Below, in pieces: positions 4,004 through 38,944 of a DNA stretch of 38,944 nucleotides (the stretch's first letter is position 1; the number at the start of each line of letters is the position of its first letter). The DNA lies in contig JANYFP010000007.1 in assembly GCA_025362555.1 (NCBI GenBank), positions 1 to 38,944 on the forward strand. Reading direction: 5' to 3'. The notes beneath the pieces are model-generated. The model was not told the origin of the DNA, did not search any database, and was given only the letters and a program-made list of their open reading frames with translations. The stretch comes from Verrucomicrobiota bacterium. GTDB lineage: Bacteria > Verrucomicrobiota > Verrucomicrobiia > Opitutales > Opitutaceae. A program made the position numbers and the translations under genes.

Positions 4004-7000
4004 ATGGCGCGTTCGCTCCGCGACGCGCTAACGGCGAGGATTGGCTGCACCCTAACCTACCACCCCGCCGTGTTATTCCTTACTTCTTGCTGGAAACAGC
4101 ATGCTCACGCCCTCGCTTTGCGCTTGGTGCGATTCACTTTTTATCCAATTGGCCGCTGGCTTTGCGCTTCAGGTCTTGCGCTGATCATCACAGGGGCGAT
4201 GCCTTCGCTGGCCAAAGCCGGCGAGGCGGCCGCGGTTTTTTCCGGCAAAGTTCTGGATAGCACTTCAGGCAAATATCTCGAGGGCGCCGAGATTGCCGTG
4301 CAGGGCACGGAGATTCGGGTGAGCACAGGGCGCGCCGGCGTATTTGTGCTCCCGGAATTGACTGTTGGTTCCCATACGTTGCTCGTGACCTACCTGGGCC
4401 TGGAACCAAAAACGGAAACAATTCAGGTGCGACCGGGCGATAAAGAGGAGCACGTCGTGCGTCTTGGCGCAGCCGAAGTTCTTCAGCTGAATGTCATTCG
4501 CGTGAGTACGGCGCGGGAAGGCATGGCTCAGGCGATCGCGCTGCAAAAGGTTTCCGTGCAATCCAAAGTGGTCGCGGCCGCCGATCAATTCGGTGAAGTC
4601 AGTGAAGGTAACGTCGGGGAGTATCTGAAATTTCTCCCCGGGGTCACGATTGACTACAACGTCAACGACGCGCGCGGGATCAGCCTGCGGGGGTTGAGCA
4701 CGGCTTTCACGATCGTCGCGGTCGACGGCACGCCGATGGCGGGCACTTCGTCGATGGACGATTCCCGCCGCTTTGAATTTGAGCAGATCGCGATGAATAA
4801 CGTCGAGACTACCGAATTGTTTAAAACGGTGACTCCGGATCTTCCGGCGAGCTCGACCGGCGGCTTTGTGAATTTTGTCACGAAAAGTGCGTTCGATAGC
4901 GAAGGTGTCCAACGATTTTCTTACAACGCGTCACTGTCCGCTCCCAGCACCAATCTCCATTTTGATAAACAGGGCGGCGTCTGGGGCCATAAAGCGGAAT
5001 ACACGATTCGGCCGAGCTTGGATCTTAACTATGCGCGCCGGGTGAATTCGAAATTTGGTTTTAATCTTAATTATCGGCTCTCGGAAAAATACGACGACTC
5101 GCCGCGCACCACGGCTACGTGGAATCAAGTCTCCATCGCGGGCCAACCCTCGATCTTCAGCGCCACTCCGCGGCTTGGTACTTTCGCGGTGCGTAGTGAA
5201 CAGAAACTGACCCACCGCGAAGCCTTTGCGACCAAACTCGATTACTTCATCAGTGATGCGACCAAACTTTCCGTCTCCGGCCAGTGGAATTGGTACGATC
5301 TCAATTTCACTCAGCGCGGACCAACTTTCGCGCTGGGCACCAATGCCACGGCTAACGGTGATAGCTATACCTCGGGCACGGGTGCGGGGGTCACCGCTCC
5401 CGCCGGCACGATCACGAACGGTGTGCTTTACCGCAATAAATACGGCACGACGTGGCACGTGAACGGAACGCTGAGTCACGAATTCAGCTCGAAGGCCAAA
5501 GCCTCGTTCACCACTTATTTTTCCCGCGCTGACGGGCAGTATCGCGACGTCACCAAGGGTTTCATTTCTTCGGCTCAAACCATGTCGCCCTCTGCGGCGA
5601 CCTACACGAACGTCACGATTGCCGGTTTGCAGCAAGGTGACCTTCCCACGATTTCGCTCACGAATGCGGGCACACTGGTCTCGCTCGATCTGATCCGCTC
5701 GCTCAGTAACTACACGTTCAGCAATACCACGGGCACCAACTTTCAGTCCCGTCCGTGGAGCGCCATCGACACAAAAAAAGGCGTGAGTGGAGTTTATTAC
5801 TATGACCTGGCGTTGGCTGTGCCGGTGAAACTTCAGACGGGCTTTGCGCTGGACGACGTCGAACGCTACATTAACCGCCCCGACTATCGTGGGGCAATTC
5901 CCGCGACCACCGGTTCCGCGCTCACCGCACTCAGTGATCCGAATTATACCAAGGATGTGGCTTTCGGTTTCGGTTCCTACCAGGTGGTTGATCCGTACAA
6001 GGTGAAAGATGCCTTTATTTCAAAGCTCACGCTGGTTTCTGCGGACGATGTCCGTAACTTTCATGAGAAAAATAATGCCGGCTACTTGCGGGCCGACGCC
6101 AATCTGACCAGCGAATTACTCGTTATTGGCGGGGTGCGTTGGGAGAATCATACGATTGATGCTCAAGCGCAGAGTCGCGCCAATAAGCGCTCCAAGCTCG
6201 CGCAAATTAATCTGGATTACGCGGAATTGTATCCCTCGTTGAGCTTCAAATATTCGCCAAAAGCCAATCGGAATGTGGTCGTGCGCGGCGGAGTCAGTCG
6301 CACCGTCGGCCACCCCGACTATGTTGACCTCCTCCCGGTGATCACCTCGGAGAGTGCTCCGGGGGCGGCCGATGGCGTCATCAGTGTGCCCGATCCGAAA
6401 TTGAAACCGTATTTTTCGACGAACTTCGATCTGTCGATCGACTACTACCTGAAGCACTCCGGTGTGCTCAGTGTCTATGGCTACGTGAAGGACGTGAAAA
6501 ACGCCTTTGTCCAACGCAGTATGACCGCGAGTGATATCCAGGCGGTGGCGGCGGATTACGGCTATAACTCGGCGGAGTTTAGCTCCGGGATCGTGACCGA
6601 AAACGGCGGCACCTCCCGCCTGAGCGGCCTGGAAATCAGCTACGCGCAAAACCTCACGTTCTTACCGAAGCCCTTTGATGGTCTCAGCATTCAGGCGAAT
6701 TTCACCGCTCTGGCCGTGAACACGAACGATCTGGATCTGCGCTATTCCCAACTCCGGGCGGTATCGCCGAAAACCGCGAACTTCATTCTGAACTACCGCT
6801 ATCGGGCATTTTCCGTGACGGCTACGACCAACTGGGTTTCGGAAAGCATTTTCGGCGGTTTTGTCGCCACCGCGTTCGTGACGGGAACCAAAGGCAATGC
6901 GCTCACCGGCGCGCCCGATACCCGGTTGGTCAGTTACCGGGATGAAAAAGCCACGACCGACGTGAAGTTCGAATACGCGATCAACAAGAATGCCTCGGTG

Positions 7001-12282: not shown

Positions 12283-12460
12283 CGCAGGGAAACCTGGGGT
12301 CTGCAGGTGGGATCTGACGCAGGTTTCGTCACGGTAGGCAGCGTTACCGAGCGAATGCGACGTCTGCCACTTGCTCGCGCTCCGGAGAGCACGGTTTTGG
12401 CCCAACGGCGGAGCTTGGTTGCACGCGATTCAGGGCGCCAGTTGACGGCACCATGTTTGG

Positions 12461-12485
12461 AATCGCTTGCAAGCAAGCTCCTACA
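12461..12485. repeat. REP-like element (AATCGCTTGCAAGCAAGCTCCTACA)
   Basis: Same sequence as part of 23281..23306 and the reverse complement of part of 23228..23253. Confidence 0.8.
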
Positions 12486-16939: not shown

Positions 16940-17635
16940 CTATTTTTTCTGACCGTAATAGGCGCCGGGGCCGTGTTTGCGTTTGAAATGTTTGTTCAGC
17001 AATTCGGGCTCGATTTCGCCGAGTTTAGGCACGAGTTGCAGCGACATCAGCGCCATGTGGGCGCAACACTCAGCGGCGACGGCGACTTCGACGGCTTTCG
17101 CGACCGTGAGTCCCCACGTGAAGGGCGCGTGACGATTAACTAGCACCGCCGGACAATCGAGTGGATCAAGTTTTTTGAAGCGTTCCAGAATCACGTTGCC
17201 GGTTTCCCACTCGTAGGCGCCGTTGCTGATTTCCTGTTTCGTCATTTTTCGGGTGACGGGAATTTCGCCATAAAAATAATCCGCGTGAGTGGTGCCGAAG
17301 ATCGGCACGGCCCGGCCGGCTTGGGCGAACGAAGTCGCGTGCGAGGAGTGCGTGTGCACGATGCCGCCGACTTTTTCAAAACCGAGATAGAGCCGGCGAT
17401 GCGTGGGCGTGTCGGAAGAGGGATTTAATTTTCCTTCGATCTTTTTCCCTTCGAGATCGACGAGGACCATGTCTTTCGCCTTGAGCACGGTGTAGTCCAC
17501 GCCGCTGGGCTTGATGGCGAAGATGCCGCGCGCGCGGTCGAGGGCACTGGCGTTGCCGAAGGTGAGATTAATCAGGCCGTATTTCGGCAGGAGCAGATTG
17601 GCTTCGTAGGCTTCGCGTTTTAATTCGGTGAGCAT
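16940..17635 (-). CDS. araD: L-ribulose-5-phosphate 4-epimerase
   Basis: LTFGNASALDRARGIFAIKPSGVDYTVLKAKDMVLVDLEGKKIEGKLNPSSDTPTHRRLYLGFEKVGGIVHTHSSHATSFAQAGRAVPIFGTTHADYF, ending HFKRKHGPGAYYGQ. Confidence 0.96.
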   Translation of the reverse strand: MLTELKREAYEANLLLPKYGLINLTFGNASALDRARGIFAIKPSGVDYTVLKAKDMVLVDLEGKKIEGKLNPSSDTPTHRRLYLGFEKVGGIVHTHSSHATSFAQAGRAVPIFGTTHADYFYGEIPVTRKMTKQEISNGAYEWETGNVILERFKKLDPLDCPAVLVNRHAPFTWGLTVAKAVEVAVAAECCAHMALMSLQLVPKLGEIEPELLNKHFKRKHGPGAYYGQKK

Positions 17636-17686
17636 GGGAGGGGATCAGTTAAATTAATTCCAACGATGAATGACTGGGAGGGGGTG

Positions 17687-17812
17687 GCCCGCGAAACATG
17701 CGAAATTCGCGAAAACGGAGAGCGTGGACATGCGCAAAATTTTACTCCTGATCGGAGGCGGATTGGGTTGAGGAGCTTGTTCGATTTCGTGTCTTTCGCG
17801 TGTTTCGCGGGC
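17687..17812. repeat. inverted repeat of a GCGAAA-rich motif
   Basis: gcccgcgaaacatgcgaaa (17687-17705) pairs with tttcgcgtgtttcgcgggc (17794-17812), one mismatch in 19. Confidence 0.8.
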
Positions 17813-23227: not shown

Positions 23228-23306
23228 TGTAGGAGCTTGCTTGCAAGCGATTCGGAGCGCGCGCGGACGGGGCACATGCTGAATCGCTTGCAAGCAAGCT
23301 CCTACA
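23228..23306. repeat. paired REP-like elements forming a perfect 26-bp inverted repeat
   Basis: tgtaggagcttgcttgcaagcgattc (23228-23253) and gaatcgcttgcaagcaagctcctaca (23281-23306), 27-bp spacer, between araA and the GH51 gene. Confidence 0.95.
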
Positions 23307-23336
23307 TTCGGAGCGACTAAAGGCGGACGCGGGTTT

Positions 23337-24914: not shown

Positions 24915-26667
24915 GGGACGAGAGAGGGGGGAGGGGGATTGGTTCGGGCAACGGCGGATTTTTCCGGATGTAGGAGCTTGCAAGCAAGCTCCTACAATTG
25001 GGACGGGAGTGAGGAGTTGAGTTTTTCAGCGCCAGCAGGTCTTTCATGACCCGCGAGAGATCGGCGGATTTATTTAGGCCACCGAAAGAATCATGGACCT
25101 GACGGTAGAGCGCGTAGAGTTGGTTGTAGGTTTTCTGCGCGTCGGCTTTTGGCTTGTAGGAAACTTTCTTGAGGGAAGTCATCTTGCGCTGCGCGGTCGG
25201 GAAGTCCGGATGGGCGCCGGCGAGCACGGCAGCGGAGACGGCGGAACCGAGCGCGCAGGCTTGGCTCGAACCGGATACGAGCATCGTGCAACCGGTAACA
25301 TCGGCGTAGATTTGCATCAGCAGCGGATTTTTCTCCGCAATGCCGCCGGCGCAGACGACGCGGTCGATGGGCACGCCGTATTCTTTGAAGCGTTCGATGA
25401 TGGCACGCGCGCCGAAAGCAGTGGCTTCGATGAGTGCGCGATAAATTTCCGCCTGCGTCGTGTGGAGAGTGCAGCCGATGATGACGCCGGTGAGCAGCGG
25501 ATCGACGAGGATGGTTCGATTGCCATTTTGCCAATCGAGGGCGAGGAGACCGCTCGCGCCGGGTTTTTGTTTCGCGACTTCCTGAGTGAGCCGAGCATGC
25601 CGGGCGGCGTTGCCTTCGCAGACGACCTCGACCCACCATTTGAAGATATCACCGACGGCGGATTGGCCGGCTTCGAGACCGTAAAAACCCGGGAGAATCG
25701 CACCGGGGACGATGCCGCAGATGCCGGGAATATCGGGGACGTTTTTGGTGGCGGAGACGACGCCGCAATCGCAGGTGGAAGTGCCGATCACTTTGACGAG
25801 CGTGCCTTCGGCGACGCCGCAACCGATGGCACCGTAATGCACATCGAACTCGCCGATTGCGATGGGGATGCCGGCGGGCAGGCCGAGTTTTTTCGCCCAC
25901 TCGGCGCTCAGAGCGCCGGCGGATTCGGTGGCGTCGTAGGCTTTCGTGAAGAGGCGGTCGCGTAAATCCGCGAGGGCCGGATGGAGCAGCGTGAGAAATT
26001 CCTTGTCGGGCAAGCCGGCCCAATCGTCGGAGTAGAGCGCCTTGTGGCCGGCGGCGCAGATCCCGCGTTTGACGAGTTTCGGATCGGTGATACCGGCGAG
26101 AACGGACGGAACCCAATCACAGAGTTCAACCCAGGAGTACGCGGCGGCAAAAACTTTCGGGGCGACGTTTTGGCAATGCCAGAGCTTCGACCAAAACCAT
26201 TCGGAGGAATACGTGTTGCCGCACTTGGCGATGAATTGCGGACGGTGCTGCGCGGCGAGTGCGGTGATCTGCGCGGCTTCGCGGTGGCTGGTGTGGTCTT
26301 TCCAGAGCCAGCATTGGGCGTGGAGATTCTTGGCCCATTTTTTGGACGAAGCCAGTGGGACGTTATTTGCGTCGACCGGGATCGGGCTGGAGCCGGTGGT
26401 GTCGACGCCGAGGCCGATTATTTTTTTCGCGTCGAAGCCACGCGTTTTTTTCGCGGCGGCGAGCGCGAGGCGGACGCTCTTTTCGAGACCGAAAAGATAA
26501 TCGGCCGGATGTTGGCGGGCGAGGTGATGATCGCGCGGGTCGAGCAAGATGCCCTGCGAGCCGGAAGGGTAGTTGACGGAGCTGCTGCCGAGTTCCGCGC
26601 CGTCGGCGCAGCGAACCACGAGGGCGCGCACCGAGTTTGTGCCGTAATCAATGCCGAGGGTATACAC
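24823..26667 (-). CDS. araB: ribulokinase with an unusual C-terminal extension that reads through a REP-like palindrome
   Basis: GTG start [83 protein letters not shown]. The plausible native end is near ...[13 protein letters not shown]; the reading frame continues about 65 aa further. Confidence 0.95.
24969..24996. repeat. REP-like palindrome inside the araB reading frame
   Basis: tgtaggagcttgc-aa-gcaagctcctaca: perfect 13-bp arms with a 2-nt centre. Confidence 0.9.
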
Positions 26668-34747: not shown

Positions 34748-35770
34748 ATGTCTTTTGGGTTCCGCAAAATTATTTGCCTGATTTTTGGATGGATGCTCGC
34801 CGGCGGTCTGTCGCCGGCATCGGCCAAACAGGTCAGCATCCACGATCCGGTCATGGCCCGGGAAGGGGACACGTATTATTTGTTCAGCACCGGACCTGGC
34901 ATTACTTTCTACAGTTCGAAGGATTTGAAAAACTGGCGTTTGCGCGGTCGAGTGTTCCCGGGCGATCCGGTGTGGGCGAAACAGGTGGCGCCGACTTTTA
35001 ACGGCCACATTTGGGCGCCGGACATCGTGCAGCATGGCGGGAAAAATTATCTCTACTATTCGGTGTCGGCCTTCGGGAAAAACACGTCGGCCATCGGCGT
35101 GACGGTGAACAAAACGCTCGATCCCGACTCGCCCGGATTGAATTGGACGCAGGCGACGGCGCTTTTTTCCGCGGAACTGCCGTGCGCGAGGAAATACGCG
35201 CCCGCGATGCGCCCGTTGGATGTGTGGGCACCGGACGGACAGGAATTTGTCGGACGAATCTGGTGTTATTATTCCGTCTCCGAATTTGGCCGGAATAGCT
35301 CCGCGATCGGATTGAAATCCTGTACCAGTTTAGCCGCAGGCGACTGGCGCTACGACGCCTTGGTAAGCACTTCGCGCAGCGGGTTGGATGCCTACAATGT
35401 GATCGATCCGTTTCTTACTGCCGATGCCGCCGGTAAACTCTGGCTGGCCTTTGACTCCGGGTTCGACGGCATTCAGCTCGTGACGCTCGATTCTGCGGCA
35501 ATGAAGCCAGCGGGAGCCATTCGCTGCATCGTCCGGAGGGAAAACGGCATCGAGAGCCCCAATCTGGTTTACGCGAACGGCTGCTTTAACTCCATCGAGA
35601 AATGCTGCGCGGGCGTGAAGAGCACTGGCAAGATCGCCTGCGGTCGCTCCGCAAAAAGCAGGGGTGCCTACGTGGACAATGCGGGTGTCTCTCCCTGGGG
35701 TGGCGCCGGCACCGTGCTCGAAATCGGCGGGGAGCGCTGGGAAGGACCGGAGCGCCCGTCATGCCTATGA
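34748..35770 (+). pseudogene. chimeric GH43 ORF: N-terminal half of an arabinanase-type GH43 fused to a GH43 lacking its start; frame lost near the C-terminus
   Basis: Residues up to about KTLDPDSP are nearly identical to the GH43 at 37429. A second WAPD...CYYSVSEFGRNSSAIGL blade and the remainder of a GH43 follow. Stop after GGERWEGPERPSCL, while the expected tail RHAYDAQDNGRPALRGSDLFWDAERWPTF continues in another frame (ORF 35664..36053). Confidence 0.75.
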
Positions 35771-35886
35771 CGCGCAGGACAACGGCCGGCCCGCATTGCG
35801 CGGCAGTGATTTGTTTTGGGACGCGGAGCGCTGGCCCACTTTCATCAAGCCCGCGGATTCCGCGACAATCCGGTCCCCTAAATTCT

Positions 35887-37428
35887 ATGCTAAATTCACG
35901 GTCCCTTCGTTACCTGCTACGCTTCGCCCTGCTTGGCTGCTGCTCCCTCGCAGGAGCTCTCCGCGGCGCCGATCCGCTGTCGCCACCCGAGCCGATTGCG
36001 GCGGGAACATTTGCGCCGACGGTCGAATCTTTGCGGCAATACCAAACCCCTGAATGGTTTCGCGACGCGAAGTTCGGTATCTGGGCGCACTGGGGTCCGC
36101 AAGCCGTGCCGCGCCAGGGCGACTGGTATGCGCGCCAGATGTATTTACAAGGGCATCCGCAATACGAGCATCACCTCAAAACCTACGGCCATCCCTCGAA
36201 GCACGGCTACAAGGATATCATTCCATTGTGGAAGGCGGAGAAGTGGGACCCGGACGCCTTGATGGCGCTCTACGCCAAAGCGGGCGCCAAATATTTCGTC
36301 AGCATGGGGGTGCACCACGACAATTTCGATCTGTGGAATTCAAAATTTCATCGCTGGAACTCCGTGGCGATGGGCCCGCACCGCGATGTCGTGGGCGAAT
36401 GGAAACAAGCCGCCGTGCACGCTGGTTTGCGTTTCGGCGTCTCCGAACATCTCGGCCCCAGCTACGCTTGGTTCTCTCCGAGTCACGGTTGGGATCAGTA
36501 TGGCCCCACACCGGGTGTTCCCTATGACGGGGCTGATCCGACCAACGCGGATCTCTACCATCCGGAACATAACGAGCCGTTTCATTGGGGACGCTCCTGG
36601 TACGCGACTGATGAAAAATGGCATCGGGAATGGTTCAACCGGATCAAGGATCTTGTCGATCAGCACCATCCTGATTTTCTCTACACGGATGGGGGAATTC
36701 CATTCGAGGAAACCGGTCGCAGCCTCCTTGCCCATTTCTACAATTCAAATTGTGCGGCGCACGGCGGGAAAAATGAGGCGGTCTACACTTTCAAGGACAT
36801 GGGAACCGGCGAAGTTATTCCGGAAGCTGGGGTGTTGGATGTTGAGCGCGGCGTGATGCCCGGTATCCAGCCTCGCCCCTGGCAAACCGATACTTCGATC
36901 GGCGATTGGTTCTACAGTGACGGCTTCAAATATAAGACAACCACTGACGTCGTTCACATGTTGGCCGACATCGTTAGCAAGAACGGCAATTTGTTACTGA
37001 ACGTGGTGCTCTACGCCGACGGCAGTCTTCCGCCCGAACCGCGTGAGTTCCTCGGCGAGATGGCGGCATGGATGACGGTAAATGGGGAAGCAATCCACGG
37101 CACCCGGCCATGGAAAATTTTCGGTGAAGGTCCGACTGTGGCGGCTTCCGGTCATTTTAAGGAGGACACCGTTTACACGCCGCAGGACATCCGTTTCACC
37201 ACCAAAGCAGATGCACTTTACGCAATCACCCTCGGCGTGCCCGAGGGTGAAGTCCGAATTAAGTGCCTCGGCCGCGATGCCAAACTCTCCGACAAGACGG
37301 TGCAGACCGTGCGCCTTCTCGGCAGCAGCGAAAAACTTACCTGGTCGCAGCAGGCTGAGGCGTTGGTGATCACGGTGCCTTCTTCCCTCCCCAGCCAACA
37401 CTCCGCCACGTTCAAGATTGAATTTTGA
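35887..37428 (+). CDS. GH29 alpha-L-fucosidase-like glycoside hydrolase
   Basis: ORF 35602..37428; start MLNSRSLRYLLRFALLGCCSLAGALRGADP at 35887. WFRDAKFGIWAHWGPQAVPRQGDWYARQMY, KAGAKYFVSMGVHHDNFDLWNSKFHRWNSVAMGPHRDVVGEWKQAA, DFLYTDGGIPFE, NGNLLLNVVLYADGSLPPE. Confidence 0.93.
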   Translation: MLNSRSLRYLLRFALLGCCSLAGALRGADPLSPPEPIAAGTFAPTVESLRQYQTPEWFRDAKFGIWAHWGPQAVPRQGDWYARQMYLQGHPQYEHHLKTYGHPSKHGYKDIIPLWKAEKWDPDALMALYAKAGAKYFVSMGVHHDNFDLWNSKFHRWNSVAMGPHRDVVGEWKQAAVHAGLRFGVSEHLGPSYAWFSPSHGWDQYGPTPGVPYDGADPTNADLYHPEHNEPFHWGRSWYATDEKWHREWFNRIKDLVDQHHPDFLYTDGGIPFEETGRSLLAHFYNSNCAAHGGKNEAVYTFKDMGTGEVIPEAGVLDVERGVMPGIQPRPWQTDTSIGDWFYSDGFKYKTTTDVVHMLADIVSKNGNLLLNVVLYADGSLPPEPREFLGEMAAWMTVNGEAIHGTRPWKIFGEGPTVAASGHFKEDTVYTPQDIRFTTKADALYAITLGVPEGEVRIKCLGRDAKLSDKTVQTVRLLGSSEKLTWSQQAEALVITVPSSLPSQHSATFKIEF

Positions 37429-38457
37429 ATGCACTTTGAGTTCACCAATTTTGCTCGTGGGATTTTGAGCTGGCTGCTTCTGGCTGGGATTACATCTGCC
37501 GACGCGAAACAGGTCAGCATTCACGATCCGGTCATGGCTCGGGAAGGAGATACTTTCTACCTTTTCAGCACTGGACCGGGAATTACTTTCTACAGTTCGA
37601 AAGACATGAAGAATTGGCGGCTGCGTGGGCGAGTGTTCCCCGGCGAGCCAGCGTGGGCCAAGCAAGTCGCTCCGACCTTTAACGGCCACATTTGGGCGCC
37701 TGATATTGTCCGCCATGACGGGAAAAATTTCCTCTACTATTCTGTTTCCGGTTTCGGGAAAAACGCCTCAGCCATCGGCGTGACGATCAACAAAACGCTT
37801 GATCCCGATTCGCCCGACTACAAATGGGAGGATCAAGGAATCGTGCTTCATTCCGTGCCGGAGCGTGATCTCTGGAATGCAATCGATCCCGCCGTGGTGC
37901 TGGAATCCGACGGCACCGCGTGGATGGGTTTCGGTTCCTTTTGGTCGGGACTGAAGCTGGTGAAGCTGGCGCCCAGTCTCACCGCGTTGGCTGAGCCGCA
38001 GGAATGGCGGACGTTGGCGAAACGGGATCGTTCGTTTCTGATTCCTGATACCGAGCCGGGAACGGCCGAAATCGAAGCGCCCTTCTTCTTTAAAAAAGGA
38101 GACTACTACTATCTGTTTGTCTCGTGGGGCCTGTGCTGTCGCGGCAAGGACAGTACGTATCGATTGATGGTGGGGCGCTCGACGAACGTCACGGGTCCCT
38201 ACTTTGACAAAGAAGGCCGTAAATTGACCGAAGGCGGTGGCAGCGTGGTGTTGGCCGGTAATAAAACGTGGCCGGGCCTGGGCCACAACAGTGCGTACAC
38301 TTTTGACGGCAAAGATTATCTCGTTTTCCACGCCTACGAGGCGGCAGATCACGGTCTGCAAAAATTGAAAATCGCCGAAATTTCCTGGGACGCGCAATTC
38401 TGGCCCGTCATCGATCCGACCGTGCTCGATGACTACGTCAGCACGCAAATCGAGTAA
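37429..38457 (+). CDS. GH43 arabinan endo-1,5-alpha-L-arabinosidase-like
   Basis: [45 protein letters not shown]...[99 protein letters not shown]. Start abuts the GH29 stop (TGAATG). Confidence 0.95.
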   Translation: [342 protein letters not shown]

Positions 38458-38481: not shown

Positions 38482-38850
38482 ATGCAAACTCAAAAACTTA
38501 CCGTGCTCGAGAAGATCGGTTTCGGGGCCGGCGACGCCGCCGTCAACGTCGTCTGGTCATCGATGGCCCTGATCCTGACGTTTTTTTATACCGACGTGTA
38601 CGGGCTCAAGACCGCGGACATTGCGATGCTCGCGCTGCTGCCGCGGTTAATTGACGCCTTTGCTGATGTCGCGATGGGCATGATTACCGACAAGCACACG
38701 ACGCGGTGGGGGCGCTACCGTCCGTACCTGCTGTTCTTCTCCGTGCCGTTCGGCCTGTCGATCATGCTGGTCTTCACGACCCCGGAGTTGGCGTACAATT
38801 CTAAACTGCTCTATGCGTATGCGACGTACATTGCGATGATGCTGGTGTTC
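38482..38850 (+). CDS. GPH/MFS-type sugar:cation symporter, truncated by the fold-back at the window end
   Basis: LTVLEKIGFGAGDAAVNVVWSSMALILTFFYTDVYGLKTADIAMLALLPRLIDAFADVAMGMITDKHTTRWGRYRPYLLFFSVPFGLSIMLVFTTPEL...YATYIAMMLVFTA; sequence after about 38850 is the reverse complement of upstream sequence. Confidence 0.9.
38554..38647 (+). repeat. left arm of a 94-bp perfect inverted repeat
   Basis: tggtcatcgatggccctgatcctgacg...gctgccgcggt equals the reverse complement of 38851..38944. Confidence 0.97.
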
Positions 38851-38944
38851 ACCGCGGCAGCAGCGCGAGCATCGCAATGTCCGCGGTCTTGAGCCCGTAC
38901 ACGTCGGTATAAAAAAACGTCAGGATCAGGGCCATCGATGACCA
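38851..38944 (-). repeat. right arm of a 94-bp perfect inverted repeat at the contig end
   Basis: accgcggcagcagcgcgagcatcgc...gggccatcgatgacca equals the reverse complement of 38554..38647. Confidence 0.97.

Follow-up and report, generated by a model that had tools for sequence, protein, structure and literature searches.

A terminal inverted repeat truncating a GPH-type symporter gene in an Opitutaceae contig is almost certainly a fold-back chimera

The window analysed here, a stretch of 38,944 nucleotides, is the complete contig C170 (G000:C170:1-38944), which belongs to a 94% complete draft genome assembled into 588 contigs with a total of 5.19 Mb. At the right end of the contig lies a truncated open reading frame (ORF) belonging to a sugar:cation symporter gene, within which an inverted repeat begins that reaches the last base (Table 1). 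As the window is the entire contig, the end of the repeat coincides with the end of the contig itself rather than with a boundary set by the choice of window. Upstream of the transporter, a GH43 ORF (34748-35770) has its Pfam match mostly in its first part and is overlapped by the next ORF (35602-37428), which begins with a long stretch without a family match, while a close GH43 paralogue adjoins at 37429-38457; the first of these ORFs is possibly a frameshifted or decayed GH43 copy. Additionally, a short dispersed inverted repeat, GAATCGCTTGCAAGCAAGCTCCTACA, is present in the window at 12460-12485, 23228-23253, 23281-23307, and 24976-24996, as well as on other contigs (L008, L019, L081, L130, L160, and L176), and may represent a REP-type element.

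Table 1. Features at the right end of contig C170 and fold-backs at two further contig ends of the same genome
Feature	Position	Strand	Description
Truncated ORF, 136 aa	38482..38892	+	N-terminal part of GPH-type (MFS_2) sugar:cation symporter; roughly the first 125 residues are genuine, the remainder is the false tail AAAARASQCPRS
Arm 1 of inverted repeat	38554..38647	+	Genuine transporter coding sequence; uninterrupted coding in relatives
Spacer, 203 bp	38648..38850	+	Genuine transporter sequence; overlap with the end of contig C261 over 38663-38857 (96% identity)
Switch point, 7-bp microhomology ACCGCGG	38851..38857	+	Reverse complement of CCGCGGT (38641-38647); end of the sequence common with C261
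False fold-back copy of arm 1	38858..38944	-	Splits from C261 at 38858; in G023 and G034, matches the transporter gene in reverse
Fold-back, contig C60 (L008)	17397-17504 / 17586-17693		108-bp perfect arms, 81-bp spacer, to last base
Fold-back, contig C31 (L127)	6045-6158 / 6230-6343		114-bp perfect arms, 71-bp spacer, to last base

The initial annotation had described a perfect fold-back with 94-bp arms and a 203-bp spacer running up to the last base, and direct sequence comparison confirmed this description. Positions 38851-38944 are the exact reverse complement of 38554-38647 (94/94 bp), and extension to 95 bases breaks the match, while a repeat finder reports slightly longer arms of 97 nt (38554-38650 / 38848-38944) that are 99% complementary. 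An inverted repeat of this length and perfection is far beyond chance, since 1.24 Mb of the same genome contain no internal perfect inverted repeat of at least 40 bp, the longest being 37 bp. The palindrome CCGCGG, which had been proposed as the switch point, was retained as its core, and the sequence common to both sites was refined to 7 bp (ACCGCGG / CCGCGGT).

The truncated ORF covers only the beginning of the family models, matching positions 1-114 of 427 in PF13347 and positions 1-115 of 437 in TIGR00792 (gph), the latter with a score of 108, and its protein alignments end at residue 124-125 in all relatives compared. Used as a query against the genome, the terminal 505 bases of C170 retrieved contig C261 (6397 bp), whose own end lies inside the overlap between the two contigs. 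Both agree through ...GTGTTCACCGCGG and diverge directly after ACCGCGG; past this junction, C170 folds back, while C261 stays in frame as VTIPYISLPGVITADPQERLSANGYRLFF... (VTIPYISLPGV...) until the transporter is complete. The rest of the transporter in C261 is an MFS_2 protein that on its own scores 282 against TIGR00792, above the curated cut-off of 231. Both the genuine stretch of the ORF and the C261 continuation are members of the GPH family (TIGR00792; PF13347 MFS_2), but owing to the chimera the C170 copy ends after about 125 genuine residues. After the transporter, C261 carries a GH43 gene. The 195-bp overlap contains eight differences, seven of which are synonymous, a pattern that would be expected of two strains in one population, and C261, which is 4% different in the overlap, may derive from a co-assembled strain.

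Comparison with related genomes places the break at the same position. The best DNA matches among the 95 genomes searched end at query positions 412-423, corresponding to 38851-38862, and the remaining tail of C170 matches the same gene in reverse in G023 and G034, while the C261 protein can be aligned almost end to end in every relative tested. The order of the C170-type GH43 gene, the transporter, and the C261-type GH43 gene is kept in G023 and G033, each of them a single contig, and in L097-L100, named records with this order including PMOA01000100.1 and PLMW01000079.1, and the second GH43 gene of C261 also lies downstream in G023 and G033. Because relatives keep this order, C261 can be identified as the true downstream contig of C170. 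In G023 and G033, the transporter continues without inversion. The initial annotation had also held that the same inverted repeat in independent isolates would speak against an artefact; the C170 junction sequence, with up to three mismatches allowed, was found in none of the 199 other family genomes, and among all 200 it is present only in its own genome. Its reading of the transporter as truncated, and of the ORF end at 38892 with the tail AAAARASQCPRS as artefactual, is borne out by C261 and the relatives, both of which carry the gene past the junction; the ORF end at 38892 is artefactual.

Similar structures are found at other contig ends of this genome. The sample comprised 125 unmasked contigs totalling 1.24 Mb, with 20-kb starts used for large contigs, and provided 121 right ends and 125 left ends; seven further contigs of G000 (C2, C26, C32, C175, C179, C404, and C411) are short and wholly masked as N. 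Perfect fold-backs of 94-114 bp that run to the last base were identified at three of the 121 right ends, namely those of C170, C60, and C31. The fold-back of C31 cuts a conserved transporter-like gene at the junction, with the matches of relatives that reach the junction ending at 6232-6237, that is, 2-7 bases beyond the start of arm 2 at 6230, and with the tail of the contig mapping in reverse in those same relatives. These alignments confirm the C31 junction and make this contig an independent test of the fold-back pattern. In a search of the same genome, no contig was found that continues C60 or C31. That all three fold-backs lie at right ends may be a coincidence (1 in 8) or may be due to the direction in which contigs were extended.

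Chimeric structures of this general form have been described in two settings. In multiple displacement amplification (MDA), more than 85% of chimeras are inverted, and in more than 70% the segments are joined at a complementary stretch of 2-21 nt (Lasken and Stockwell 2007, PMC1855051). The C170 end resembles these in that its second segment is inverted, originates nearby on the same molecule, and is joined through a short complementary sequence (7 bp here), although the published chimeras come from amplified DNA, whereas the sample behind C170 may or may not have been amplified. A 94% complete draft with apparent strain variation would resemble a bulk metagenome bin more than a single amplified cell. 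Library preparation yields comparable inverted or palindromic chimeric reads, for which the PDSM model has been proposed (PMC10908179); in these, too, the sequence switches to the opposite strand where a short inverted or palindromic match lies, comparable to the palindromic core CCGCGG in C170, but they were described as reads in human capture libraries, whereas the present case is found in an assembled contig. The literature search yielded no relevant report of metagenome bins whose contigs end in fold-backs.

It is considered close to certain that the right end of C170 is no genomic feature but a fold-back chimera that arose either in vitro or during assembly. The initial annotation had arrived at the same reading, which is now backed by the overlap with C261, by the relatives, and by the two further fold-backs in the same genome, and its proposal of a microhomology template switch accords with the 7-bp match at the junction, as defined against C261. 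In such an event, a DNA 3' end halting at ...TTCACCGCGG would pair with the complementary CCGCGGT lying some 200 bases upstream in the same strand and then prime synthesis back along that strand; alternatively, sister fragments would undergo an equivalent switch of strand. The chimeric read or reads would then have taken the contig 87 bases backwards until the contig end. By inspection, the 3' end at 38851-38857 pairs with 38641-38647 over seven bases, or over nine of ten when one mismatch is included. We infer both the copying step and its stage, which could be amplification, library preparation, or assembly; MDA, the type of amplification named in the initial annotation, is one possible source of the chimera beside library preparation and the assembler. 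A fixed de Bruijn k-mer overlap (k of about 95) was considered as the sole cause and rejected because the lengths are not constant: those of the arms are 94, 108, and 114 bp, and those of overlaps at other contig ends are 73, 79, 96, 121, 124, and 137 bp.

Among biological explanations, a real and very recent inverted duplication could have inactivated the GPH transporter in the strain represented by C170, with the co-assembled strain represented by C261 remaining intact and the true repeat breaking the assembly graph. True inverted repeats can terminate contigs, and the 4% difference in the overlap might indicate that C261 belongs to another strain; yet the two arms match at all 94 bp, in a locus where the C170 and C261 versions differ by 4%, and arm 2 destroys a conserved gene found intact in all relatives examined. 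The same defect, moreover, ends two unrelated contigs and is never internal in the sample, and none of the relatives examined has a comparable repeat within the transporter gene, so that a duplication of this kind is judged very unlikely.

Two further readings are still less probable. A phase-variable invertible switch generally consists of a short segment between inverted repeats, and the 94-bp arms would here act as recombination sites turning the transporter on and off. The arms, however, are sense and antisense copies of a coding sequence and not of a promoter, the form seen in C261 is the straight continuation of the spacer and not the spacer inverted, and the junction is absent from the 199 other family genomes, leaving such a switch with a negligible probability. 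A long perfect inverted repeat within a protein gene has a published precedent in the mitochondria of Nematomorpha (PMC6649704), in whose coding palindromes both arms encode conserved protein. Arm 2 of C170 does not, giving instead AAAARASQCPRS followed by a stop, which is unrelated to the conserved VTIPYISLPGV... of all relatives; a coding palindrome is accordingly refuted by protein alignment, in which arm 2 is without homology to the conserved continuation, and is regarded as exceedingly improbable.

The reading of the repeat as a fold-back chimera has consequences for the annotation of this genome and for the gene content of the locus. With three of the 121 sampled right ends defective, terminal inverted repeats in G000 should be trimmed before gene calling, and the stub protein with the tail AAAARASQCPRS should be recorded neither as a gene product nor as a pseudogene. 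In the organism, the transporter would read on as in C261, with a GH43 gene next. In the corrected reading, C170 and C261 would adjoin to form one carbohydrate-use cluster, consisting of GH43, a GH29-type fucosidase, GH43, the GPH symporter, GH43, and GH43.
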